NCBI RefSeq assembly: GCF_030499575.1
Contig: NZ_JASTLC010000001.1
Span: 558,001-622,000, forward strand
Reading direction: 5' to 3'
DNA length: 64,000 nucleotides
DNA from: Streptomyces sp. DG2A-72
GTDB lineage: Bacteria > Actinomycetota > Actinomycetes > Streptomycetales > Streptomycetaceae
The notes under the pieces were generated by a model. The model did not search any database and was not told where the DNA came from. It worked only from the letters and a program-made list of their open reading frames with translations. A program made the translations under genes and the position numbers. This document shows, piece after piece, positions 9,358 through 27,741 of the stretch. How positions within the stretch are numbered: the first letter of the stretch is position 1; each line of letters starts with the position of its first letter.

Positions 9358-9726
9358 ATGCGGCGGCTGGGGGATCTCGAGGCGGAGATCATGGACCGCT
9401 TCTGGCGGTGGCAGCGGCCGGCGACGGTGCGGGAGATCGTCGACGACATCAACAAGGAGCGCCCGCTCGCCTACACGACCGTGATGACCGTGACCAACAT
9501 CCTCTACAACAAGGGCTGGCTGCTGCGCGGCAAGCAGGGCCGGGCCTGGCTGTACACGCCGGTCCGCAGCCGTGAGGAGTACGCGGCGGCGCTCATGGAG
9601 GACGCGCTCGGCGCGAGCGAGGACCGTCCCGTGGCCCTGGCCCACTTCGTCCAGCAGATGGGTCCCGACGAGATCAGCGCCCTGCGCAAGGCATTGCGCG
9701 CGGCGGGGCGGCAGGCCGAGTCGTGA
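9358..9726 (+). CDS. blaI: BlaI/MecI/CopY-family repressor
   Basis: A 122-residue winged-helix repressor of the BlaI/MecI/CopY family. The family signature runs along residues 1-75: LGDLEAEIMDRFWRWQRPAT, then VREIVDDINKERPLAYTTVM, TVTNILYNKGWLLRGKQGRA and WLYTPVRSREEY. The C-terminal dimer helix follows. Such repressors are inactivated by cleavage or metal binding. Here the next gene, overlapping by four bases (ATGA), encodes an M56 membrane protease, the usual partner that inactivates BlaI. GGGAAGGG precedes the ATG at proper spacing. Possible operators upstream of this and three other genes are listed separately. Confidence 0.92.
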   Translation: MRRLGDLEAEIMDRFWRWQRPATVREIVDDINKERPLAYTTVMTVTNILYNKGWLLRGKQGRAWLYTPVRSREEYAAALMEDALGASEDRPVALAHFVQQMGPDEISALRKALRAAGRQAES

Positions 9727-10637
9727 ACGCGGTGCCCGCGCTGCTCGGCTACGCGGCGGGAGTCGGTTTCCTCGCCCCGCGGCTGCTGCTGCACAGCGCC
9801 TGGCCGCACCGGGCGCCGGCCCTGGCCGTGGCCGTGTGGCACGGGCTGACCGTGTCGTTCACCATCGCTGTCGCGCTGGCCGCGCACCACCTCGCCAGCC
9901 CGACCGAGCACCTGCACGCCGACCTGATCGGCGTGCTGCATTCCTGCGGTCTGACCAACGCGACCGCCGCGCCCGACCCGACCATCATCGACCGCCTGGC
10001 GGTCGGTCTCCCGCTCTTGGCGGTGCTCCTCGTACTCGGCTGCTTCGTCTTCGAAGTGCTCCACGGCCGACGTGCCCGCACCCGTCACCGGGAAGTCCTG
10101 GACATGGTGGGCCGTCGCTCGCAGCACTTGCGCGCCACCATCCTTGAACACGAACTGCCCGCCGCCTACTGCCTCCCGGGACACAACCCGCGTGTCGTCG
10201 TCAGTGCGGGCGCCCTGCGGCTGCTCTCTCCCGGGCAACTCGATGCCGTACTCGAACACGAGCGTTCACACATCGCGGGCCGCCACCATCTGGCGCTGGC
10301 CGCCACGGAGGCGTTTGCCCGGGTCTTCCGACGACTTCCGCTCGCCCACCACGCCAGGGAGCAGACCGCAGTGCTCCTGGAGATGATCGCCGACGACCGG
10401 GCGCTGCGCCGCCAGTCTCGCGAGGTGCTGGCCTCGGCCATGTACGAGATGGCGGCGGCCAAGGCCGCCCCCGCGGGCGCGTTCGCGGTGGGTGGTCCGA
10501 GCGCCGTGGTCCGAATGCGGCGGGTGCTCATCCCGCAGCGGCGGCCGCATGTCGCGCTCCTTGGTTCGGTGACCGCCGCAGCGGCCGTGGTGCCGGTGCT
10601 CCCGCTGCTGTTCGGCTGCGTACCCATCATTGGATGA
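9723..10637 (+). CDS. M56-family membrane metalloprotease (BlaR1/MecR1-like)
   Basis: A 304-residue integral membrane protein of peptidase family M56. It has N-terminal membrane helices, a loop, a further helix near residues 95-115 (LAVGLPLLAVLLVLGCFVFE), the cytoplasmic zinc-protease domain with the HExxH motif HERSH (His179, Glu180, His183), and a last C-terminal helix (AAAVVPVLPLLFGCVPIIG). Unlike BlaR1 it has no beta-lactam sensor domain, so the signal is unknown. Its start overlaps the blaI stop. By analogy it should cleave the BlaI repressor when triggered. Confidence 0.9.
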   Translation: MNAVPALLGYAAGVGFLAPRLLLHSAWPHRAPALAVAVWHGLTVSFTIAVALAAHHLASPTEHLHADLIGVLHSCGLTNATAAPDPTIIDRLAVGLPLLAVLLVLGCFVFEVLHGRRARTRHREVLDMVGRRSQHLRATILEHELPAAYCLPGHNPRVVVSAGALRLLSPGQLDAVLEHERSHIAGRHHLALAATEAFARVFRRLPLAHHAREQTAVLLEMIADDRALRRQSREVLASAMYEMAAAKAAPAGAFAVGGPSAVVRMRRVLIPQRRPHVALLGSVTAAAAVVPVLPLLFGCVPIIG

Positions 10638-10690
10638 ACCGGGCGCAAACGCCCCTCTTTCCCAGCGTGGATTGCGACTTCATCTACGAA

Positions 10691-10707
10691 GCTACTAAGT
10701 TTCTAGC
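10691..10707. promoter_or_regulatory. Candidate BlaI site upstream of the NlpC/P60 gene
   Basis: GCTACTAAGTTTCTAGC is an imperfect palindrome (GCTAnnAAnTTnnTAGC) containing TACTAAG and CTAG. It is 77-93 bases before the NlpC/P60 start. The same TACTAAG core with a CTAG/GTAG mate occurs before the DUF5134 and DUF6153 genes. An operator for the adjacent BlaI is the simplest reading. Confidence 0.5.
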
Positions 10708-10783
10708 GTATTTGATCGAGCCGACGGCACTGCGCTGGGAACGGTGCCTTGCCCGCGTGGGCACACAGAGGAGTTGTCGCAGG

Positions 10784-11812
10784 ATGGGATCCCACCGCCG
10801 ACCGAAGCCACCGAGCGGTCCCCGGCTCGCCGTACTGGCCGCCTCGGCGGGTGCGTTCTCCCTGCTGTCCACGGCACAGAGCCAGGCCGCACCGAAGCCC
10901 TCCATCGAGAAGGTGCGCGAAGAGGTCGAGGAGCTATACCACGACTCGGAGGCCGGCACCGAGGCGTACAACACCGCCCAGGGGAAGAAGGCGGTCCTGC
11001 AGAAGGCCGCCAACAGGGCACAGGAACGGGTGGCCGAGCAGCAGGCCGAGATCAACGAGATACGCAGCGAGATGGGCCCGGTAGCCGCCTCACAGTACCG
11101 AGACGGTGGCCTGGACCCGAGCGTGCGGCTCTTCCTGTCGGCCGACCCCGATGACTACCTGGAGCAGGTGGAGCTACTGGATCGTACGAGCTCCCGGCAG
11201 ATCTCCCTGCTCAAGAGCCTTCAGCACAAGCAGCGGGAGCTCGCCCAGACGCGCGCCGAAGCGTTGAAGAAGCTTGAGGCGGCCCGCAGGGCCCAGGAGC
11301 AGATGAGCGAGAAGAAGCAGGAGATTCAGAGCAAGCTTCGCAAGGCCCAGAAGCTCCTGAACAGCCTCACCGCCGAACAGCGGGCCGAGCTCAAGGCCGC
11401 GGAGGCGGAGGCCGACCGCGCCTCCGGCAGCAGCGACAGCGCCGCCACCTACAACGGTCCCGCCAGCGGACGCGCCCGTACCGCGATCGAATTCGCCTAC
11501 GCCCAGCTCGGCAAGCCCTACGAGTGGGGATCGACCGGCCCGAACTCCTACGACTGCTCCGGCCTGACCGGTGCCTCCTGGCGCGCCGCCGGCGTCTCGC
11601 TGCCCCGCACCGTCAACCAGCAGTACAACGCCGGCCGGCAGGTCGCCCGCTCCGACCTCCAGCCCGGCGACATCATCTACTGGTACAACAACAGCCAGCA
11701 CAACGGCCTGTACATAGGCGACGGCAAGGCCATCCACGCACCGCGCACCGGCAAGAACATCGAGATCACCAATCTCGACTCCATGCCGTACTTCGCCGCC
11801 ACGCGGCCCTGA
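10784..11812 (+). CDS. Secreted NlpC/P60 peptidoglycan endopeptidase with coiled coil
   Basis: A 342-residue secreted RipA/CwlS-like cell-wall hydrolase. The start at ATG 10784 is preceded by GAGGAG; an upstream ATG at 10634 would put 50 residues of non-signal sequence before the signal peptide. Order: signal peptide (LAVLAASAGAFSLLSTAQSQ, residues 14-33), a long Glu/Lys/Arg-rich coiled coil (about 35-210), a Ser-rich linker, then NlpC/P60 at about 230-342 with Cys258 (YDCSGLTGAS), His in QHNGLYIG and GKAIHAPRTG. These enzymes cut D-Glu-mDAP bonds. The coiled coil normally restrains activity. It follows the BlaI/M56 pair and has a candidate BlaI site upstream. Confidence 0.92.
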   Translation: MGSHRRPKPPSGPRLAVLAASAGAFSLLSTAQSQAAPKPSIEKVREEVEELYHDSEAGTEAYNTAQGKKAVLQKAANRAQERVAEQQAEINEIRSEMGPVAASQYRDGGLDPSVRLFLSADPDDYLEQVELLDRTSSRQISLLKSLQHKQRELAQTRAEALKKLEAARRAQEQMSEKKQEIQSKLRKAQKLLNSLTAEQRAELKAAEAEADRASGSSDSAATYNGPASGRARTAIEFAYAQLGKPYEWGSTGPNSYDCSGLTGASWRAAGVSLPRTVNQQYNAGRQVARSDLQPGDIIYWYNNSQHNGLYIGDGKAIHAPRTGKNIEITNLDSMPYFAATRP

Positions 11813-16352: not shown

Positions 16353-17231
16353 TCAGCCGATCACATGACCCCCGCCCGACGCCACGGCCAGGCGCTTCTT
16401 GAACGTCTTGCCGCCGTCCTTCGACTCGAACACCCCGGTCTGGGTGGCGGCGAGGACGTGCGCGGCGCTGACAGCGGTGAGCGCCTGTGGCTGCCCGCCC
16501 GGCAGGGTGGCGACCTTTTGCCACGTGGTGCCGCCATCCGTACTGCGGTTCAGGGCGCCGGAGGTGTCGATGCCATGGAGAGCGTCCTTCGCGGTCCAGG
16601 AAAGGAAGGCCATCATCACGGGCCGCTGACCATGGGTGAAGGTCGTCCCGCCGTCGCCGCTTCGGGAGACTCCCTCCGCGGTGGTGGCCAGGACGACGCC
16701 GGGGTCTGTGGGGCTGACTGCTATGTCCCAGGCTTCGAGCCGGGCCCCGTCCTTCCAGGAGACGCCGTCCTTGGTCGTGCGGACCAGGCCGTTGGTGGAG
16801 TCGTAGCCGTAGACCGTGCCGTGGGCGAAGTCCAGAGCGTGGAAGTCGGACTCGCCGGACAGGGACAGGGACTTCCAGGTCTTGCCCGCGTCGGCGCTCT
16901 TGATGAGCCCCTTGTTCCCGCCGGAGGTGGGGTGGCCGCTGGCGTAGAAGGTCTTCGCGCCGGCCACGGTGAAGCCCATGAAGTCGTCCCTGCTGTTGCC
17001 CACCAGCTCGGGCTCCCCCTTGGCATCGGGGGTGTAGACGCCTTCATGGGTGGCGACGTAGAGACGCTGGTCGGTCGGGTCCACACCGAGACCGTGGATG
17101 TGGCTCACGGTCGTCCTTGCACCGGCGGACTTGCCGGTCGGCTCCTCACTGTCTCCGCTGTCGGAGCAGGCGGCCAGGACAAGGGCGAGAGCCAGGGCAG
17201 TGGCTGCCACGGCGGCGGGGCGCTTGTTCAT
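16353..17231 (-). CDS. BNR/sialidase-like repeat lipoprotein (F510_1955 family)
   Basis: A 292-residue lipoprotein. The signal peptide ends in a lipobox (LVLAAC, Cys about residue 20). The rest is a beta-propeller of BNR-type repeats: GVYTPD, LIKSADAGKTWKSLSLSG, LVRTTKDGVSWKDGARL, VSRSGDGGTTFTHG, LNRSTDGGTTWQKVATLP, VFESKDGGKTFKKRL. The opening VSHIHGLGVDPTDQRLYVAT is typical of the F510_1955 group, named as glycosylhydrolase but without proven activity. These proteins commonly sit in copper-related loci next to DUF305 and DUF6153 genes, as here. The start is ATG 17231, just before the signal peptide. Confidence 0.83.
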   Translation of the reverse strand: MNKRPAAVAATALALALVLAACSDSGDSEEPTGKSAGARTTVSHIHGLGVDPTDQRLYVATHEGVYTPDAKGEPELVGNSRDDFMGFTVAGAKTFYASGHPTSGGNKGLIKSADAGKTWKSLSLSGESDFHALDFAHGTVYGYDSTNGLVRTTKDGVSWKDGARLEAWDIAVSPTDPGVVLATTAEGVSRSGDGGTTFTHGQRPVMMAFLSWTAKDALHGIDTSGALNRSTDGGTTWQKVATLPGGQPQALTAVSAAHVLAATQTGVFESKDGGKTFKKRLAVASGGGHVIG

Positions 17232-17361
17232 GATTCCTCGGGGGCGTAGGAGTGCACCGGAGCGGCGACGGTCGATCACGCTCGTGGCGACATGGGGAGA
17301 AGACCGCCCGGGCTCCTCGGGCCGCGCCTCGGAGCCCTGGGCGGTCAGTGGGTGATGCGGA

Positions 17362-18042
17362 TCAGAGCCGGTCGAGGATCTTCTCGAACTTCTCGACCTC
17401 GGCGGACTGGGTCTTCACGACGTCGGCGGCGAGCTTCTTGGCCGTGGCGTTACGGCCGTTCTTCTGCTCGTCCTCCGCCATGGTGATCGCGCCCTTGTGG
17501 TGCTCGATCATCATCTCCGCGAACATCCGGTCGAACTCGGTGCCCTTGGCGGCCTCGATCTTCTGCATGTCCTCTTCGGACATCATTCCGGACATTCCAG
17601 ACCCGTGGTCCATGCCACCGGACCCGTGGTCCATGCCGGGCATGCTCTCTTCGGCGGACTCCGGCTTGCCCCAGGCCTTCAGCCAGGACCTCATGGTCTG
17701 GATCTCGGGATCCTGGGCCTTCTCGATGTCCCCGGCCAGGGTCTTGATCTCCGCGTCGGAGGCCCGGCCGTCCGCGAGCTTGGACATCTCCAGAGCCTGC
17801 TCGTGGTGCGGGATCATCATCTGCGCGAACATGACGTCCGCGTCGTTGAAGGCGCCGGGCGCCGGGTTGTCAGCCGCCGTCGGGGTGGACGTGACGGAGG
17901 CGGAGCTGCCGCTCCCGTGGTCCATGCCCTCCATGCCGTCCCCGCCGCAGGCGGCGAGCAGCAGTCCACCCGCCGCCACGGCACTCACGATCGCGATACG
18001 GCGACGAAGGCGGCGGCGCAGGCCAGAGTTGTGCGCAGTCAT
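17362..18042 (-). CDS. DUF305 lipoprotein, Met/His-rich
   Basis: A 226-residue lipoprotein (lipobox LLLAAC at about 28-33) of the DUF305 family. Two helical halves carry the family motif: MFAQMMIPHHEQALEMSKLA and MFAEMMIEHHKGAITMAEDE. Both contain the HH pair and neighbouring Met. Between and before them are MEGMDHGSGSS, MPGMDHGSGGMDHGSGMSGM, which look like metal-binding stretches. DUF305 proteins are found with copper-resistance genes. The gene lies between the DUF6153 and BNR-lipoprotein genes on one strand and is probably co-transcribed with them. Confidence 0.9.
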   Translation of the reverse strand: MTAHNSGLRRRLRRRIAIVSAVAAGGLLLAACGGDGMEGMDHGSGSSASVTSTPTAADNPAPGAFNDADVMFAQMMIPHHEQALEMSKLADGRASDAEIKTLAGDIEKAQDPEIQTMRSWLKAWGKPESAEESMPGMDHGSGGMDHGSGMSGMMSEEDMQKIEAAKGTEFDRMFAEMMIEHHKGAITMAEDEQKNGRNATAKKLAADVVKTQSAEVEKFEKILDRL

Positions 18043-18132: not shown

Positions 18133-18615
18133 CTATATCCGCAGCACTGACAGCTGAACGAGGAGAGGTCTGGGGCGTGGCGGGCTGGGGCGCAGCACGG
18201 CCATCGCTCGTGCGAGCAGTGCCGTCAGCTGTGCCTTCCGGCGAGCCGCCGCGCACAGGAACAACCAGAGCAGCCACCCGGTGAGCACCGCCACGCACAC
18301 GGACAGCACGTCCATGCTGATCGTGGGCTCGTCCACCGCCGCCGACGACGCGGCCGGTGCCGCGGCCCCGTGGTCCGCCATCGCCTCATCAGGCCCGGTG
18401 GATGTCTGGTTGTCGGCAGCCCCATGGGCCATGCCGCCCTCGGGCGGGCCTACGACGGCATGGAGAGCGCCGTCTGTCGCCGAGCCCGAAGAGTGCTCCG
18501 GATGGCCCATCGTGTGCATGGCGAACACGCCGAATGTGAGCACGGCTACCAGCAGGAGGTACCCGAAGGCCCCGCCCACACGCAGCCGACTGCTCACACG
18601 CAACACGCCAGACAT
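18133..18615 (-). CDS. DUF6153-family membrane protein
   Basis: A 160-residue protein. An N-terminal helix (GYLLLVAVLTFGVFAMHTMG) is followed by a His/Met/Gly-rich external stretch (HPEHSSG, MAHGAADN, MADHGAA), a second helix (VLSVCVAVLTGWLLWLFLCA) and the DUF6153 ending RPLLVQLSVLRI. ATG 18615 lies only two bases from the candidate BlaI site and has no clear Shine-Dalgarno, so translation may be leaderless. It heads the DUF6153-DUF305-BNR set. A broken relative is at 13194-13690. The function is unknown; metal binding in the envelope is inferred. Confidence 0.78.
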   Translation of the reverse strand: MSGVLRVSSRLRVGGAFGYLLLVAVLTFGVFAMHTMGHPEHSSGSATDGALHAVVGPPEGGMAHGAADNQTSTGPDEAMADHGAAAPAASSAAVDEPTISMDVLSVCVAVLTGWLLWLFLCAAARRKAQLTALLARAMAVLRPSPPRPRPLLVQLSVLRI

Positions 18616-18617
18616 AC

Positions 18618-18635
18618 TACTAAGCCGGTTCCTAG
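18618..18635. promoter_or_regulatory. Candidate BlaI site at the DUF6153 start
   Basis: TACTAAG, seven bases (CCGGTTC), then CTAG. With flanks it is an imperfect palindrome CTAnnAAGCCGGTTnnTAG. Spacing equals that at 15278-15295. It lies immediately before the start codon of the minus-strand DUF6153 gene, so binding would block initiation. Confidence 0.5.
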
Positions 18636-18667
18636 AACGGCGACCTGCCGACCGGGCCCCGGCAGGC

Positions 18668-18932
18668 TCAGGCGCATCGGCCGTCCCTGCCCGGAACGCG
18701 CTCTCCGTACGCCAGTGCTCCCATCCTCTGCTGGTATTCAGCGGCGTCGACCCGGCCATGCATCCGCAGGCCGACGAGCCACTGCTCCGCGGCAGCCAGA
18801 GCGGCCCGCCGCCCTCGCGGCCTCGCCAGGGCGAGGACACCGCGATTCCTCAGGCGTCACCAGCCGTGCCGTGTCGTAGACCACAACCAAGAGGATCACC
18901 GCGCCGATCAGTGCCGCCACCACCGCGGCCAT
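18668..18932 (-). pseudogene. Small SHOCT-like membrane protein, frameshifted
   Basis: ATG 18932, preceded by GGTGAGG, opens a helix AAVVAALIGAVILLVVVYDT, then VTPEE. A frameshift near 18840 separates this from a downstream frame reading LAAAEQWLVGLRMHGRVDAA, then EYQQRMGALAYGE, ending at 18668. The second piece has the pattern of a SHOCT-like tail (short helix hairpin 'LR..G.IDaaEYq.RM..L'). Together they would make an about 87-residue protein. It lies just downstream of nuoN on the same strand. It is either a decayed gene or a one-base assembly error. Confidence 0.6.
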
Positions 18933-19004: not shown

Positions 19005-20431
19005 TCAGCGCGCGAGCGGTCCGCCCAGCATGTCCAGGACGGTCCCGCCGAGCACTCCGAGTACGACGGATGCGGTGGCCGCCCCGTAGGCGACGAGGGC
19101 CGCTGATCTTGACGTCGCACCCGGATCATCCGCGGGTCCGCGTGCGAGAAACGCTGGGGCGATCCAGCGCAGGTAGTAGAAGAGGGAAGCCACCGTATTG
19201 ACGGCCGCGACGACCGCCAGCCATGCGTAGCCGCCGTCGAAGGCCGCGCTGAAGGCTTCCAGCTTGCCGAGGAAGACGGCGGTCGGGGGCGTGCCCACCA
19301 GGCCGAGCAGGCAGACGACGAGCGAGGCCAGCAGGGCCGGGTGCGTCCGCGCCAGGCCCCGGTAGTCGTCGATGGTGTGGGCCTCGGGAAGTGCGCAGAC
19401 GACAGCGAAGGCGCCGAGGTTGGTCAGCGCGTACCCGGCCAGGTAGTACAGCAGCGCCTCCTGGTCGAGGTCGGTGCGCCCGGCGACGGCCACTGGGAGC
19501 AGGAGATAGCCGACCTGGCTGATGGTGGAGTACGCGAGGAGTCGTTTGACGTCCTGCTGGAAGAAGGCCGCCAGGTTGCCCAACGTCATCGAGGCCACCG
19601 AGAGCACGGCCACCAGGTCGGCCCACGGCAGGTCGGCGTCCGCGAGCGGCACGACGGCGAGCCGGTAGAACGCGGCCAGGGCTCCGATCTTGGGGATCGT
19701 GGTGAGGAAGGCAGCGACAGGCGCCGAGCTGCCCTGGACAGCGTCCGGCACCCAGAAGTGGCCGGGCACGCCGCCGGCCTTGAACAGGACACCGGCGAGC
19801 AGCGCGAGCGTGCCGACCGCCACCAGTCCCGCCGGGGCCTCGGCGAGTTCGGTGCGCAGCATGGGATACGCCGTAACTCGCCCGGCGGCGAGGAGGACGG
19901 TGATGCCGGCGAGCATCAGAACGCCGAGGAGCGCGCCGACCACATAGAACTTCAGGGCCGCCTCGGTTCCGGGGCCGTCCTTGCGGAACCCGGCGAGCGC
20001 GTAGGCGGGCACGCCGGCCAGCAGGTAGCCGGCGGCGAGGAGCAGAAGATCCTGGGCTCCGGCCAGCATCAGGGCGCCTGCGGAGGAGAGTTGGAGCAGG
20101 ACGTAGAACTCGGTCTCGCGCGGGTCGCCGTACAGGCGCGGCATGGCGAGCGCGAGAACCAGCAGCGTGGCGCCGAGGATGACGATCCTGCTGGTGGCCG
20201 TAAGCGTGTCCAGGGCGAAGGACTCGCCGAAAACCGTCTCCACGGGCTTGGCCGCGGCAATCGCGGCGGCCACGATCCCCACGGTGCAGGCCGTTCCCGC
20301 CAGGGCCCCGGTCAGCCACTGGCGGCGGCGCGGCAGCCACGCCCCGAGCAGCAGACCGAGGACGGCGGAGGCGGCGAGCAGGACCTCGGGCAGGAGGTCG
20401 AGGGGGTTCTCGTTCATCCCGGTCATCTCGT

Positions 20432-20435
<4 letters not shown>
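19005..20435 (-). CDS. nuoN: NADH-quinone oxidoreductase subunit N-like
   Basis: A 476-residue antiporter-like complex I membrane subunit with about 13 helices. Diagnostic segments are LKFYVVGALLGVLMLAGITV, FKAGGVPGHFWVPDAVQGSS (Lys and broken-helix region), FFQQDVKRLLAYSTISQVGY and TPPTAVFLGKLEAFSAAF. These carry the conserved Lys and Glu of the proton channel. The start ATG 20435 overlaps the nuoM stop (ATGA); two further ATG codons shortly downstream are possible. It is the last recognised subunit of the operon. Confidence 0.9.
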
Positions 20436-21945
<1,510 letters not shown>

Positions 21946-21949
<4 letters not shown>

Positions 21950-23796
21950 CTCACGAGGACGAGGACGACGGCGAGGACAGTGAAGGCGGCGACCGCCTGA
22001 GCGAGGTACTGGTGCAACTGCCCGGTCTGCGGCCTGCGCGCCCAGCGGCCGAGCGCGCGGGCACCGCCCGCCACGCCCTCCACCGTGCCGTCGACGAGCC
22101 GCTCGGCCTGGGCGTTGGTCCACTGCGCCAGCCGGACCGACCCGCGGGCCGTGCCCTCGACGGCGCGGTCCAGCACCCGGTCGTCGAAGGCGGCAAGGGC
22201 GTGGGCGAGGCGCATGACCGGGCCTACGAGGAGGGTTCGTGCCGCGTTCTCCAGGCGCAGCCAGTCGGACGTCCAGGCAGTGAACCGGCGCGGGAAGGCG
22301 AGGAGTTGGGGTCCACGCATCCAGACCAAAGCGGAGACGGCCAGCGCGAGCGCGCCGGACAACCCCAACTCCCAAACCCGCGGGTCCGGTTGTCCCCCGC
22401 CGCCGAGTACCCGCCGGACCGCGTCACGTACGGGCGGGAAGGACGTGACGGTCAGGGCGGCGCAGGCGACGGCCAGGGTCACCAGCGGCAGCCGGGTCGC
22501 ATACGGCAGCGGTTCCTCACGGTCGTCCGGCACGGGAGCGGGCTGCCAGACGAACCAGAGGGCCTTGGCGCTGTAGACCGCGGAGATCACCGCACCGGCC
22601 AGCCCGACTGCGTACAGCGCCAGGTTGTCTTCGAGGGCGCCGGCGAGAAGCACGTCCTTCGCCGCCCACAGCGCCAAGGGCGGGACCCCGGCCAGAGCCA
22701 GGGCCGCGACGCTGAAGGTGATCCCGGCCGTACGGTGCCGCCGGGCCGCGCCGCGCAGGGCGGGCAGCGCCTTGGTGCCGAGGATGGTCAGCCAGGCGCC
22801 CGCGACGACGAAGGCCAGGCTCTTCGCGGCGGCGTGCGCGATGAGTTGCAGGGTTCCGCCGGTTACCGCTCCGGCCCCGGCGGCAAGCACCATGAATCCG
22901 ATCTGCGCGCAGGTCGAGGCGGCGAGCAGCTGCTTGAGGTCGGTCTGCGCCACGGCGACCAGGCCGAGCACCACCGCCGTCACGACGCCCGTCCACGCCA
23001 CCACGGGCCCGCCCCACCCGGAAGCCGACAGCAGTGGCTCCAGCCGCAGCAGCAGATACGCCCCGGCCACCACCATGGTCGCCGAGTGCAGCAGGGCCGA
23101 GACCGGGCTCGGGCCCTGCATGGCCCTGGACAGCCAGAAGCTGAACGGCAGTTGGGCCGACTTGCCGAAGGCGGCCGCAATGACGCCGACGGTGATGACC
23201 GTGGACCAGACGCCGGTCGCGTCCGGGAGTTCATCGAGGGCGAGGGAGCCGACCTGCCCGCTCGCCCACGCCGCGCCGGCGGCCAGATAGAGGCCGAGGT
23301 CGGCGGCACGGGTGGTGAGGAAGGCCGTATTGGCGGCATCGCCGCGCTCGGGGTCGCTCCACCAGTAGCCGATCAGCGCCCAAGAGGTGGCGCCCATCAC
23401 CTCCCATGCCATCAGCAGGACCGTCAGCGTGGTCGCGGTGACCGTCGTCAGCATCGCGCCGCCGAACAGCAGCATCAACCCGAAGAAGCGGGCGCGTGCC
23501 TCGCCCGGTCCGATGTCCGCGACGCTGAACAGGAGGACGGCCACGGTCACCGCCGTGACGGTGACGACCATGAGGCCCGACAGTCCGTCGACCGCGAGCC
23601 CGGCGGGAAGCCCTTCGAGCAGCGGTACCTCGACCCGAGGGTGCTCGAACGCCACCGCGACGGCGAGGCCGAGCGCGGCAACGGCCGTGCCGACCGCGAC
23701 CGTCGGGGCGTACCGGTCCACCGGGCGGCCGACGACCGCCAGCAGCGTGCCCACGGTCAACGGCAGCGCGACGAGCGCCCACAGCAGCGCGCTCAC
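21946..23796 (-). CDS. nuoL: NADH-quinone oxidoreductase subunit L-like
   Basis: A 616-residue antiporter-like subunit with about 15 helices and a C-terminal amphipathic stretch. Marks: GLSGLMVVTVTAVTVAVLLF, ATSWALIGYWWSDP, AFGKSAQLPFSFWLSRAMQG (where NuoL has FPLHTWLPDAM), PSPVSALLHSATMVVAGAYL and QTDLKQLLAASTCAQIGFMV. The substitution of the usual HxWLPDAM by SFWLSRAMQ matches the DUF/NuoL subgroup seen with unusual complexes. The start GTG 23796 overlaps nuoK. The lateral helix HL is present but shorter than in E. coli. Confidence 0.9.
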
Positions 23797-24098
23797 TCCT
23801 TCAGCTCCGCCGCCATGTCGGTCATGTCGACCTCGCGGGATCGGAACAGCGCGGTGACGACGGCGAAGCCGATGGCCATCTCCACGGCCATGACCGTGAC
23901 TGCCAGGACGACCAGCACCTGTCCGTCGGCCGCGGCCGGGGCGATGTAGTACCAGACGGCCGCCGCGCCGACGATGATGCCGCCCAGCATCAGTTCCAGC
24001 CCCATCATCAGCATCACGATCGACTGCTGGGTGAGCGCGCCGAACAGGCCGATGCTGAACAGAGCTGCGGCGAGCAGCAGAAAAAGCTCCAGGCTCAT
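23793..24098 (-). CDS. nuoK: NADH-quinone oxidoreductase subunit K-like
   Basis: A 101-residue subunit with three helices: FLLLAAALFSIGLFGALTQQ, SIVMLMMGLELMLGGIIVGA and VLAVTVMAVEMAIGFAVVTA. Both conserved membrane Glu residues are present (in GLELML and AVEMAIG). Start and stop overlap nuoJ and nuoL by four bases, so translation is coupled. Confidence 0.93.
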   Translation of the reverse strand: MSLELFLLLAAALFSIGLFGALTQQSIVMLMMGLELMLGGIIVGAAAVWYYIAPAAADGQVLVVLAVTVMAVEMAIGFAVVTALFRSREVDMTDMAAELKE

Positions 24099-24658
24099 CG
24101 GCCCATCCCTCCCCCTACCGGGTCGTCGGCGGTACGCGCCTTGAGATCGTCGCCAAAGCGGTCATAGCGGCCCCGGCGCGTGGCCAGGACGACGGTCGCG
24201 ACGATGGTGGCGAACAGGGCGAGACCCAGGGTCATCATGGTGAGCATCTGAGGGCCCATCAGCGACAGGCCCAGGTCCATGGTCGGATCGGCCGACGGCC
24301 TGCCACGCCGGGACGGCCACGGGGCGAGCAGGATTCCCGCGGCGAGTACGGCGAAGACCGCCGCGCAGATCACGGCCGCGCCCTTCTTGTTGTGGACCAT
24401 GGTCATCGGCATGAGCCCGGCCGGGTTCATCATGTACATCACCATGAACACGGCCATGATGGCCATCTCGATGGTCATCATCAGCACGATCACGACCCCG
24501 AGGTAGTCCAGCCCGAGCAGCAGCACTTCACCGCCGACGCACAGCAGAGAGGTCAGCAGCGCGTACGTGGCCCGTGCCATGGAGTCGAACCGGAACACCA
24601 TGATCCCGCCGGCCACCGCCAGCAGGGCCAGCACCCAGAAGATCGCGTCGTCATGCAC
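24095..24658 (-). CDS. nuoJ: NADH-quinone oxidoreductase subunit J-like
   Basis: A 187-residue, five-helix subunit. Marks: FWVLALLAVAGGIMVFRFDS, LTSLLCVGGEVLLLGLDYLG and VVIVLMMTIEMAIMAVFMVM. The middle helix is unusually Met-rich (IEMAIMAVFMVMYMMNP). I choose GTG 24658, which has GGAGG eight bases upstream; ATG 24664 and GTG 24667 are too close to that site. It follows nuoH by 13 bases and overlaps nuoK. Confidence 0.88.
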   Translation of the reverse strand: MHDDAIFWVLALLAVAGGIMVFRFDSMARATYALLTSLLCVGGEVLLLGLDYLGVVIVLMMTIEMAIMAVFMVMYMMNPAGLMPMTMVHNKKGAAVICAAVFAVLAAGILLAPWPSRRGRPSADPTMDLGLSLMGPQMLTMMTLGLALFATIVATVVLATRRGRYDRFGDDLKARTADDPVGGGMGR

Positions 24659-24671
24659 GGCCATCACCTCC

Positions 24672-25616
24672 TCATCGGTTCAGGACGACGACGGCCACGA
24701 ACAGGGCCTGAAGCAGCGTCAGCGGCACCAGCACCATCCACGCCGCCTCCATGTACCGCTCCATGCGCAGCACGGGCAGCAGCCGACGCCCGGCCACCAG
24801 CAGCGCCAGCACGGCCACGGTCTTGAGCAGCGTCCACGCCCAGCCCGGCAGCAGCGGGCCGTGCCCGCCGCCGAGGAACAGCGGCACGCTGAAGCCGGCG
24901 GTCACCACGAGCAGCATCCACCGGCCGCCCAGCAACACCAGCCGGTCCACGCCTGCCAGTTCGACGGCGGCGCCCCCGGCCGCGTCCCGCGCGAGCGGGT
25001 ACGCGAACGGCCCCCAGAAGGCCATCGCGAGCGCACTCAGCAGGTAGACGACGAACGCGGCCGGCATCCACACCACGAACCACAGCCCGTCCTGGGCCGC
25101 GACCACGTCGCCCACCCGGAGCGACTCGGCCCCCAGCGCGGCCGTGGTGATGGCGAACATGTGCGGAAGTTCGTACGCCAGACCCTGCGCCAGGAACCGG
25201 TACCCGCCGATCAGCGACAGCGCCGAGTTCGGCCCCCAGCCCGCCAGCCAGACCGCCGCCCAGGCAAGCGCCTCCATCGCGTTGAACCACACGATGCCGA
25301 CGGACGGATCGCTCACGGAACGGAAACCCCACGGCAGTACGGCACCTGCGAGCACCGCCGCCACCGGGACCAGCACCACGCCCAGCCTTCCGAGCAGCCG
25401 ATCCGCGGCTGTCGTACGGCGCGGCTGCTGGACGAGCAGCCGCAGGGCTTCGCGTAACGGGGCCGTCGCGCGGCGCCCGGCCTCCCGGACGCTTCCGGCA
25501 GGGCCGCGCTCGGCAGCCCCGGACAGCACCGCGTCGAATCCGGCCGTGACCACGGCGGCCACCGCCAGGGCGACAGGGAGGATGACGGTCGCCCAGAGGG
25601 GCGCTGCATCAGGCAT
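24672..25616 (-). CDS. nuoH: NADH-quinone oxidoreductase subunit H-like
   Basis: A 314-residue membrane subunit that in complex I forms the quinone channel with NuoB and NuoD. Segments: VVTAGFDAVLSGAAERG, PLREALRLLVQQPRRTTAAD, VWLAGWGPNSALSLIGGYRF, LAQGLAYELPHMFAITTAAL and AFWGPFAYPLARDAAGG. The GWGPN..L.G..R..AQ..aYE motif is preserved with its Glu. It overlaps the degenerate NuoB/D-like gene by eight bases. The cytoplasmic loop that docks NuoI is poorly conserved, in agreement with the absence of nuoI. Confidence 0.87.
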   Translation of the reverse strand: MPDAAPLWATVILPVALAVAAVVTAGFDAVLSGAAERGPAGSVREAGRRATAPLREALRLLVQQPRRTTAADRLLGRLGVVLVPVAAVLAGAVLPWGFRSVSDPSVGIVWFNAMEALAWAAVWLAGWGPNSALSLIGGYRFLAQGLAYELPHMFAITTAALGAESLRVGDVVAAQDGLWFVVWMPAAFVVYLLSALAMAFWGPFAYPLARDAAGGAAVELAGVDRLVLLGGRWMLLVVTAGFSVPLFLGGGHGPLLPGWAWTLLKTVAVLALLVAGRRLLPVLRMERYMEAAWMVLVPLTLLQALFVAVVVLNR

Positions 25617-27042
25617 GGGCCGCTCCCGAGGCGGGCGTGAGCGCGAGTTCCTCGATGTCGGGATCCAGGCTGGCCACGATGATCCGTGCGCAGGCGAACT
25701 CCGCGCCGGTCAGCAGCTCCGGAAGGATGTCGAGCAGCGCCTGCGACGGTGGCTGCGCTCCGTCCAGGCGTCCGCGTGGGCCGGCGAGCTCGCCCGGCGT
25801 CAACGGCCGTTCGTCGTCGAGCACTTCGAGGCCGCACTCGATCTCGTCCAGCCACCTCCGCAGTCGGTCGTACGCGTCCCCGTCGGCGGCGAGGGCCGGC
25901 CCGGTCACTCCTGCCGCGCCCGCTCTGGAGGACGACAACTCCCCCAGCCCGGCGATCGACCAACGCAGAGTGCGTGACCGCCGCACTCTGCGCACTACCC
26001 CGCGCAGGTCGCCGCCGATCTCCTCGCGCGGTGCTCCCGACAGCAGCTCGTCCCGCAGCCGACGGCAGCGCACGGCGACGTCCTCCCAGCCGACGACAGC
26101 GAGGAGCCGCCCCGCACTGTCCAGATGCGCGGCACAGCGCCGACGCACCGCACTTCCCCTGGTGACCTTCTCGCCCTGCGCCGCCCACAGCCACGGCTGG
26201 TCCCAGAAAGGCAGTCGATGGCCGGGCGGTACATGGAGATGGTCGACCTCGACGTCCTGTACGACGTCGCCTTGCAGGGTGAGTCGGAGAACGAGCCCCG
26301 TTGGCCAGTCGGTCAGGCCGGGGCCGACCGGTACGTGCAGCTGATCGAGTCTCAGCTCGTCCCGGTCGTCGGCCCGTTCGGCCATCGGCAGGCCTGCCAC
26401 GGCCCCCATGGCATGCATGTCGTGGCCCATGTGATCCATCTGGCCGGAATGGCCTTCATGCTCCATGTGGTCCATGTGCGGGGCATGGTCGTCGGGGTGG
26501 TGGTTCCCGTGACCCTCATGGCCGGAGTGACCCGCATGGCCGCCATGGCCGTGGCCCATGGCATGGTGCGGATGACCTTGATCGTCGGGTGCTGGAGGCG
26601 GCGAGCTGCCGTGGTGCGCCCCGTGGCCCTGATCATCACCGTGCCCTTGATGCTCCCCTGGCGCACGACCGCCAGGCTCACCCGCCGCGGCCCCCTGCTG
26701 GTCGTCTGCTTCGGCCTCGCGCGGAGTAGCCGCCCTGTCGGTCAGATCCCTCCGTGCCATCTCGAGCGCGTGCGCGGCATGCCCGGTCTCCTCGACCACG
26801 ATCCGCACGGCCGGCTCCGGCATCGACCGCTCGATGTCGTCCAGCCACTCCGCGTCCCGTGACTCCGGGGAGCCACAGACGACCATCAGGTCGGCGGCGG
26901 CCGGGGCGTCCGCCACCGGCCACCCCCGCCGGCGTACCTCTGCCTCCACCTCCAGCCGGATGTCCGTCGATCCAGGCAGCGCGACCGCCAGGACCGCCGG
27001 GCGCTGCATCGCCGTACGCCGCAGAAGGCTTCTCAGGTCCAC
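25609..27042 (-). CDS. Degenerate NuoB/NuoD-like fusion with His/Met-rich insert
   Basis: A 477-residue soluble protein where nuoB, C and D should be. Residues about 12-85 resemble NuoB without its cluster cysteines (AADLMVVCGSPESRD, DIERSMPEPAVRIVVEETGH). Residues about 120-215 form an insert with dozens of His and Met (GHGDDQGHGAHHG, HPHHAMGHGHGGHAGHSGHE, HMDHMEHEGHSGQMDHMGHD). The C-terminal half resembles NuoD in order: VPVGPGLTDWPTGLVLRLTL, GDVVQDVEVDHLHV, RTLRWSIAGLGELSS, AAGVTGPALAADGDAYDRLR. The catalytic His/Tyr of NuoD are not evident. It could be a metal-binding cap on the H-N membrane arm. NuoB/D homology is inferred by eye. Confidence 0.7.
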   Translation of the reverse strand: MDLRSLLRRTAMQRPAVLAVALPGSTDIRLEVEAEVRRRGWPVADAPAAADLMVVCGSPESRDAEWLDDIERSMPEPAVRIVVEETGHAAHALEMARRDLTDRAATPREAEADDQQGAAAGEPGGRAPGEHQGHGDDQGHGAHHGSSPPPAPDDQGHPHHAMGHGHGGHAGHSGHEGHGNHHPDDHAPHMDHMEHEGHSGQMDHMGHDMHAMGAVAGLPMAERADDRDELRLDQLHVPVGPGLTDWPTGLVLRLTLQGDVVQDVEVDHLHVPPGHRLPFWDQPWLWAAQGEKVTRGSAVRRRCAAHLDSAGRLLAVVGWEDVAVRCRRLRDELLSGAPREEIGGDLRGVVRRVRRSRTLRWSIAGLGELSSSRAGAAGVTGPALAADGDAYDRLRRWLDEIECGLEVLDDERPLTPGELAGPRGRLDGAQPPSQALLDILPELLTGAEFACARIIVASLDPDIEELALTPASGAAHA

Positions 27043-27383
27043 CGCAGGGCCCCCTCACGCCAGGCGTAGGCCACCGCAGCGAACAGGATCCCCAGGAAGA
27101 GGAACATCTCGACGACGGCTGTGGTGCCCACTTCAGAGACGACCTTCACCCACGGGTACATGAAGAGCATCTCCATGTCGAAGGCCAGGAAGATCATGGT
27201 GACCGCGTACCAGCGCACATGGAACCGGGAAACGGCGTGCTCGCCCGGCTTGAGACCTCCGGCGAAAGGGCCCGTTTCCAGGGGAGTCCGCGCTGCCGCC
27301 AGCCACAGGCCCAATCCGTAGAGGATCGCCAGCCCGGCCCCGACCACACCGAGAAGGACCAGCATCGGCTGCCATGCGTCCAT
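27033..27383 (-). CDS. nuoA: NADH-quinone oxidoreductase subunit A-like
   Basis: A 116-residue, three-helix subunit. Marks: LETGPFAGGLKPGEHAVSRF, HVRWYAVTMIFLAFDMEMLF and MYPWVKVVSEVG. The EhxxGx..P.g.A..rF..r.Y..a..FllFDvE..fl.PW pattern of NuoA is clear, with Met replacing Val. It is the first gene of the nuoA-N set. GGAGG precedes the ATG. A candidate regulatory palindrome lies 33-48 bases upstream, and copZ diverges beyond it. Confidence 0.92.
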   Translation of the reverse strand: MDAWQPMLVLLGVVGAGLAILYGLGLWLAAARTPLETGPFAGGLKPGEHAVSRFHVRWYAVTMIFLAFDMEMLFMYPWVKVVSEVGTTAVVEMFLFLGILFAAVAYAWREGALRWT

Positions 27384-27474: not shown

Positions 27475-27489
27475 TACCCCCTGGGGGTA
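27475..27489. promoter_or_regulatory. CsoR-type copper operator
   Basis: TACCCCCTGGGGGTA is a perfect 15-base palindrome, extended by ATT...TCAT. It matches the known CsoR box (G/C-rich core flanked by TA..TA) found before copZ-copA in Streptomyces and other actinomycetes. It lies 34-48 bases before the copZ start. CsoR releases such sites when it binds Cu(I). No csoR gene is in the window. Confidence 0.85.
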
Positions 27490-27522: not shown

Positions 27523-27741
27523 ATGGTCCAGAAGGTGTACGACGTCAAAGGCATGACGTGCGACCACTGCGTCCAGGCCGTCAGCTCCGAACTCAACGGC
27601 CTCCCCGGAGTCGAGGACGTCCAGGTGGACCTGCCGTCGGGCCAGGTCACGGTGACCAGCGAACAGCAGCTGGATTCCGCCGCCGTCGCCGCAGCGGTCG
27701 ACGTGGCCGGCTACGAGCTCGCCGGCGGCGAGAGCCAGTGA
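27523..27741 (+). CDS. copZ: Copper chaperone CopZ (HMA domain)
   Basis: A 72-residue heavy-metal-associated domain protein. It has VYDVKGMTCDHCVQAVSSEL with the Cu(I)-binding CDHC, then LPGVEDVQVDLPSGQVTVTS and DVAGYELAGGE. The ferredoxin-like fold is complete. The ATG at 27523 has GGAAGGAG eight bases upstream. A perfect CsoR operator precedes it. In most Streptomyces a CopA P-type ATPase follows; here only decayed sequence follows, so export must be by another locus. Confidence 0.94.
   Translation: MVQKVYDVKGMTCDHCVQAVSSELNGLPGVEDVQVDLPSGQVTVTSEQQLDSAAVAAAVDVAGYELAGGESQ

Follow-up and report, generated by a model that had tools for sequence, protein, structure and literature searches.

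A predicted complex I-like membrane machine without a redox centre and with a link to copper in Actinomycetota

Introduction

What is the function of a membrane complex built like respiratory complex I, once the parts that handle electrons are gone? The question is raised by a locus of Streptomyces sp. DG2A-72, located in a window of 64,000 nucleotides, i.e., the whole stretch of DNA that was analysed (assembly GCF_030499575.1, contig NZ_JASTLC010000001.1, positions 558,001 to 622,000 of the forward strand). The window contains an eight-gene cassette in the order nuoA3-X-nuoH3-J3-K3-L3-M3-N3, in which the second gene of the operon codes for a fusion protein, here called X. As judged from sequence features and gene neighbours, the cassette is predicted to encode a complex I-shaped membrane machine devoid of a redox centre, and a copper-handling role is probable for it. 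In relatives, X is annotated as "hypothetical" and the other cassette subunits as NADH-quinone oxidoreductase, which would explain why the system has so far been hidden.

Two sets of loci were compared. The first comprises 71 loci picked by X, and the order A-X-H-J-K-L-M-N is intact in 67 of them; the remaining four comprise three that run into the edge of a contig and the truncated L069. The second set (L172-L191) comprises 20 loci, coming from 19 of the 24 genomes with a strong NuoJ3 match, with 12 loci from one family. Open reading frame (ORF) starts are approximate in some orthologues. In the window cassette Pfam identified NuoA3, NuoH3, NuoJ3, NuoK3 and NuoL3, and the identity of NuoM3 and NuoN3 rests on operon position and on alignment to Escherichia coli NuoM and NuoN.

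The fusion protein X and the loss of redox ligands

A first-pass annotation of the X gene, made from the sequence alone, had proposed a NuoB-like part lacking the cluster cysteines, a NuoD-like part lacking catalytic residues and a His/Met-rich insert between them. The fusion was borne out by searches against solved structures, in which the halves of X matched the NuoB and the NuoD fold. The loss of the cluster cysteines extends to the whole family, the CCxxE and GCP[PR] motifs being present in none of 89 X, compared with 25 of 25 canonical NuoB. The same holds for the catalytic residues: at the position of the NuoD motif GPQHPSTHGVL, X has GPx5PxGL, and the quinone-site His (HPxxH) was found in the NuoD-like part of none of the 89 X, the sole match to the pattern, in the window X, falling in the linker. 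Among the Streptomyces X listed, the pattern H[PQ]xxHG occurs in 3 of 120, each time upstream of the NuoD-like part. X is thereby predicted to be a protein that cannot carry electrons in the way of NuoB and NuoD.

The kinship of X with NuoD is deduced from the fold match together with Pfam PF00346 matches in distant X; Pfam gave no match on the window X or on the X of locus L172, and a profile built from two NuoD sequences matched the NuoD-like part weakly (E 0.015, probability 2.9). The ratio of nonsynonymous to synonymous substitution rates (dN/dS) was 0.15-0.28 for the NuoD-like part in seven of seven comparisons and 0.32-0.66 for the NuoB-like part. X has no membrane segment, its maximum 19-residue hydropathy being 1.44.

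No gene for NuoB, NuoC, NuoD, NuoG or NuoI was found between nuoA3 and nuoN3 in the 71 loci (NuoE and NuoF were not queried); one weak NuoG-like match is present upstream of the cassette in L073. By sequence and predicted fold, X takes the place of the NuoB and NuoD subunits. The first-pass annotation had also suggested an electron-transfer or ion-pump complex tied to copper: of the two halves of this proposal, electron transfer has become less likely, because X has no iron-sulfur (Fe-S) ligands and no gene for those five subunits was found inside the cassettes, while a machine that moves ions or metal fits better.

Quinone cavity and proton path of the membrane subunits

The membrane subunits that border the quinone site are altered as well. 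NuoH3 has a degraded PFDxPExExEL loop, and the counterpart of the QxRxGPNRxG segment is absent or has been replaced in the 24 cassette NuoH that were aligned (L190 is unclear); in NuoA3 the cysteine of the ECG motif is lost. The quinone site is thus dismantled in X, NuoH3 and NuoA3; by sequence and predicted fold, both Fe-S ligands and quinone cavity are gone.

Most of the proton path has a different fate. NuoK E36/E72 are kept in 69 of 69 sequences, NuoL E144, K229 and K399 and NuoM K234, K265 and E407 in 67 of 67, and NuoA D79/E81 in 71 of 71; NuoN K217 is found in 64 of 65 and K247/K395 in 65 of 65, NuoH E157 and E228 in 69 of 70 and K274 in 70 of 70. The majority of the tested proton-path residues in A, K, L, M and N is therefore retained. 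E144 of NuoM, the glutamate of transmembrane helix 5 (TM5), is replaced by Asp in 67 of 67; with this Asp and a Leu at the TM5 glutamate of NuoN3, two of the three proton channels may be altered.

The methionine signature of NuoJ3, NuoK3 and NuoA3

The strongest putative metal signature of the locus lies outside the X gene, to which the first-pass annotation was confined, and is found in NuoJ3, NuoK3 and NuoA3. In NuoJ3, M63, M64, E67, M68, M71, M75, M79, M80 and M88 are present in 70 of 70 sequences of the first set and in 20 of 20 of the second, which, being picked by NuoJ3 similarity, is not an independent sample for this stripe. On a helix with 100 degrees per residue, M64, the newly gained glutamate E67, M68, M71, M75 and M79 fall within a 120-degree arc. 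The median Met content of NuoJ3 is 10.5%, compared with a maximum of 4.5% in control NuoJ, taken as the best PF00499 match in each of 30 genomes; the stripe was detected in none of 63 high-scoring segment pairs from these 30 actinobacterial NuoJ loci. A relaxed form of the stripe pattern was present in 119 of the 120 NuoJ relatives among the matches listed, which had been retrieved with a query from the family.

NuoK3 has M29, M32 and M70 in 70/70 sequences of the first set and 20/20 of the second, and NuoA3 has M70, M72, M75 and H55 in 71/71 and 19/19, respectively; NuoL3, NuoM3 and NuoN3 are Met-poor, with medians of 1.6-2.0%. The Met percentage of NuoK was rejected as a family discriminator, since it overlaps with that of the controls (control maximum 10.6%), while the positions do discriminate. 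The Met/Glu stripe in TM3 of NuoJ3 and the extra Met and His of NuoK3 and NuoA3 are conserved phylum-wide. In complex I, the A/J/K region is the E-channel, linking the quinone site to the pumps.

The linker of X and the heavy metal binding domain

The His/Met-rich insert described by the first-pass annotation recurs in orthologues, without being universal: a linker with at least 6 His is present in 58 of the 71 X, and its length has a median of 79 residues (range 0-284). The median His fraction is 0.20 in the linker, against 0.02 in the rest of X. Several orthologues, e.g., L053, L064 and L073, have a very short linker, in some deep relatives it is reduced to a GMMGG- or GMTGG-type stretch, and L069, which is included in the 71, has no linker region.

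At the same site, X proteins from Rubrobacter-type genomes contain an HMBD of the CPMHPEVVxxxPGxCPxCGM type; the label comes from NuoJ relatives annotated as Rubrobacter, one of which is identical to the query. Parsing of 19 deep X revealed the motif in 10, all of them among the 11 rightly parsed sequences of one family, and in none of the 7 from other families; the X of L180, a wrong-frame parse in which an HMBD is visible, was excluded from these motif counts, and the X of L173 was not recovered. Among 10 deep X scanned with Pfam, PF19335 matched 7 of 7 Rubrobacter-type sequences, all of them picked by the HMBD motif, with E from 5e-12 to 2e-27 and alongside PF00346. The Pfam scan found no PF19335 HMBD in the window X.

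Copper neighbourhood and CsoR operator

The first-pass annotation had placed the fusion gene next to copZ and a CsoR box, and both were recovered. The sequence TACCCCCAGGGGGTA fits the Streptomyces CsoR consensus, a type 2 operator TAC-N9-GTA with G-tracts, as given in the available part of PMC3902906. The strict CsoR pattern has four sites genome-wide, and none with the reversed control. Ten of the 71 loci have a strict box no more than 400 bp before nuoA3, and 400 kb of control DNA yielded none; two of these loci, L014 and L016, have it about 50 bp upstream of nuoA3, and no copZ was found there. As a general feature of the cassette the box was rejected, on these 10 of 71 strict matches and on the relaxed pattern, which occurs in just 1 of 19 deep loci.

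The recurrent neighbours of the cassette are CopZ, CopA-like ATPases, CsoR, DUF305 and multicopper oxidase. A panel made up of these five, with CopA for the ATPases, had a match beside 37 of the 71 loci of the first set, from which it had been drawn, and in 2 of 20 controls, each spanning about 20 kb at a set position in a cassette-bearing genome (Fisher p 7e-4). The cassette loci had less flanking DNA than the controls; outside the cassette it averaged about 12 kb in the first set. Since the panel came from the first set, the second is the independent and fairer test: there, 16 of 20 loci had a match, compared with 1 of 18 controls (Fisher p 3e-6). The cassette is often located in copper-resistance islands, and the link of the cassette with copper is strong; transport of the metal and its direction are what we infer. 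Near the cassette of three loci (including L012:6489-7475) is a tyrosinase-like protein, named by eye, which is another copper enzyme.

Distribution

Within the genus, 17 of 121 genomes have a match, including the window's own, one weak (G134) and one fragmented (G127), and the distribution is patchy. A NuoJ3-like match at E 1e-21 or better was found in 24 of 296 Actinomycetota genomes, the next best E jumping to 1e-10. The shared operon order and the Met signature suggest a single origin of the cassette. The family might perhaps extend beyond Actinomycetota, to Chloroflexota. One deep type of X counts among its relatives an X-like protein (P0309) named as from a Chloroflexi metagenome-assembled genome. 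In single genomes, the cassette is incomplete: L069 has nuoA3 and part of X and lacks H-N, and a fragmented copy is found at G127:C1:9210562-9211373.

Proposed function and alternative explanations

We propose that the cassette encodes a redox-inert derivative of complex I that handles Cu(I), probably via H+-coupled translocation, an overall explanation to which we give an even chance of being right. X would sit in the cytoplasm, on the membrane arm; its His/Met linker, or the HMBD in Rubrobacter-type genomes, would accept Cu(I), probably from CopZ, and the ion would travel along a Met-lined path in the A/J/K part, the site of the E-channel in complex I. Movement of Cu(I) would be coupled to H+ flow through L/M/N, with the proton motive force most likely driving export, and copper would induce the cassette via CsoR, where the operator is present. 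While a copper-handling role is probable, the case for Cu(I) translocation by the complex is evenly balanced, and outward movement is suggested with more hesitation, being preferred because the CopA, CopZ and CsoR neighbours fit export best.

Several observations weigh against this proposal. Thirteen of the 71 X have a short or His-poor linker or none at all, and the HMBD was found in a single family. The Met content of NuoK overlaps with that of controls, as mentioned above, and the Met residues of NuoK3 and NuoA3 do not share a single narrow face. Not every element of the proton path is intact: the TM5 glutamate of NuoN3 (E133) is lost in 65 of 65, being Leu in 63, H334 of NuoL is Gln in 58 of 67, and Rubrobacter-type NuoH lack the E157 equivalent. 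The copper matches of the first set come from the loci that supplied the panel, and those of the second are unevenly spread, with 12 of 12 loci matching for one family and 4 of 8 for the other families; among the named non-Streptomyces loci of the first set copper genes flank just 3 of 16, which makes the link less universal. CsoR boxes are scarce both near nuoA3 and in deep loci, and the box of the window could serve copZ alone. Finally, three antiporter-like subunits seem a heavy machine for the movement of Cu(I).

The loss of the redox parts, the mostly conserved proton path and the copper neighbourhood are compatible also with a Mrp-like, copper-regulated cation/H+ antiporter, which would move H+ or Na+ in copper stress, with His/Met sites that merely sense copper and gate; however, the conserved Met stripe follows a TM helix and is not one surface site, so that an ion path suits it better than a sensor, and we consider such an antiporter unlikely. 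More improbable is a copper-dependent redox pump, in which Cu in X and in the Met/His sites would stand in for the Fe-S clusters and H+ pumping would be powered by Cu(I)/Cu(II) chemistry. A metal-binding segment does lie between the NuoB-like and NuoD-like parts, and the pump residues are mostly kept, but NuoH has its quinone-entry segment missing or replaced in the sequences aligned, NuoD has lost its quinone His, no electron carrier that could act as a partner was found in the cassette, and Met ligands favour Cu(I) and disfavour redox cycling. Still less credit is due to the same machine serving a different soft metal (Ag, Hg) or a wider range of metals: the name of the HMBD says just "heavy metal binding domain", yet the recurrent neighbours listed above, from CopZ to multicopper oxidase, argue for copper.

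Elsewhere in the genome (10.6 Mb), nuo clusters are found near 6.06 Mb, which is the canonical one, and near 6.11 Mb, and the cassette could in principle be an alternative membrane arm of ordinary complex I, which borrows the NADH module of the canonical operon; this is very improbable, given that X has no Fe-S ligands for taking electrons and that much of NuoD is missing. A decaying complex I relic with a low-complexity insertion is hardly credible, since, although X diverges fast and fragmented or truncated copies exist (G127, L069), the complete, ordered operon of 67 of the 71 loci, the dN/dS of the NuoD-like part and the residues conserved across the phylum speak against decay. The borrowing of complex I parts and, for the family as a whole, a pseudogene or relic were rejected on the selection data and the missing Fe-S ligands.

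Returning to Cu(I) handling, a tentative and wider formulation, which we hold at somewhat less than even, is that of a new class of copper transporter, in which Cu(I) would pass through a Met-lined E-channel (NuoA3/J3/K3) in replacement of the quinone-driven signal, delivered by the NuoB-NuoD scaffold and coupled to H+ through NuoL/M/N, over Actinomycetota and perhaps Chloroflexota. Should copper transport prove true, actinobacteria would possess a new type of transporter, forming a class of its own. It has long been asked how quinone reduction in complex I is coupled to proton channels far away from it, and a relative with the proton path mostly kept and a metal-binding module in place of the redox one would allow the coupling half to be studied without redox chemistry. 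It is also a warning that the genes of the cassette are not to be counted as respiratory complex I. Our literature searches, covering mostly titles, retrieved none on a copper-linked or redox-free actinobacterial complex I; the words copper and Streptomyces are absent from the available part of the main text of PMC12361115.

Features of the locus

The coordinates of the cassette and of its neighbours are collected in Table 1. Next after the DUF305 gene, at 16353-17279, is a BNR/YCF48-like protein, with matches below the Pfam cut-off, whose cluster is found in 10 of 71 loci. An M48-type peptidase adjoins an NlpC/P60 protein at window positions 9723-11812; M48/M56 peptidases and BlaI-type repressors occur near the cassette in 13 loci each, which hints at a possible second regulator. 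Elsewhere in the genome, the second nuo cluster (L077; G000:C1:6109500-6121000) includes NuoA2, NuoB2, in which the cysteines are kept, H2 and I2 among others, and is distinct from the copper-linked cassette.

Table 1. Predicted features of the cassette and its surroundings, in window positions
Feature	Position	Strand	Basis or remarks
X, degenerate NuoB-linker-NuoD fusion, 477 aa	25609..27042	-	ORF, folds, relatives, purifying selection
X residues 1-110, NuoB-like domain without cluster cysteines	26713..27042	-	folds, motif counts
X residues 111-220, disordered His/Met-rich linker; HMBD position in Rubrobacter-type relatives	26383..26712	-	
X residues 221-468, truncated NuoD-like domain without quinone His	25639..26382	-	fold, Pfam in relatives
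nuoA3	27033..27383	-	D69/E71 kept; M70, M72, M75, H55 gained; ECG cysteine lost
nuoH3	24672..25616	-	quinone-entry segment lost, quinone loop degraded
nuoJ3	24095..24667	-	about 10.5% Met
NuoJ3 residues 63-80, Met stripe MMxxEMxxMxxxMxMxMM in TM3	24428..24481	-	
nuoK3	23793..24098	-	E35/E73 kept; M29, M31, M32, M70, M74 gained
nuoL3	21946..23796	-	proton-path Lys/Glu kept
nuoM3 (approximate start)	20432..21946	-	proton-path Lys/Glu kept; TM5 Glu replaced by Asp
nuoN3 (approximate start)	19005..20435	-	Lys kept; TM5 Glu lost (Leu)
CsoR-type operator TACCCCCAGGGGGTA, between nuoA3 and copZ	27475..27489	.	consensus from available part of PMC3902906
copZ-like copper chaperone (HMA domain), divergent from nuoA3	27523..27741	+	Pfam
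DUF6153-type small protein	18133..18840	-	label from the first-pass annotation only
DUF305 protein, His/Met-rich	17362..18042	-	

Comparison with known systems

HMBD domains occur in copper/silver transporters of the CopA and CusA/CusB types. The cassette shares with them PF19335, in the Rubrobacter-type X, and, by analogy, the proposed Met-based path for Cu(I); it differs in that its membrane parts belong to complex I families and that the window X lacks the domain.

Mrp antiporters, which are related to complex I, are redox-free users of NuoL/M/N-like and NuoK-like subunits, and cross-matches between cassette subunits and Mrp families were indeed seen with NCBIfam. NuoL3 scores 312 bits as NuoL and at most 209.5 as MrpA, all below the curated cut-offs. 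Mrp lacks NuoA, NuoH and the NuoB/NuoD fusion, which are all present in the cassette, and the copper signature belongs to the cassette.

A further comparison is with the energy-converting hydrogenase-related (Ehr) complexes, which, according to the available part of PMC6349859, have lost the catalytic metal ligands of the large subunit and kept the pump arm; unlike Ehr as described there, the cassette is also devoid of the small-subunit Fe-S ligands and has NuoA/NuoJ-type subunits.

With respiratory complex I (NDH-1) the cassette has in common subunits A, H, J, K, L, M and N, most proton-path residues and, in X, the NuoB and NuoD folds. It differs in the damaged quinone cavity, in the metal-binding linker and in the Met stripe. 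Thus, though it fails to show the N2 ligands, the quinone His and, as far as found, NuoC, NuoG and NuoI, the cassette plainly derives from complex I stock.

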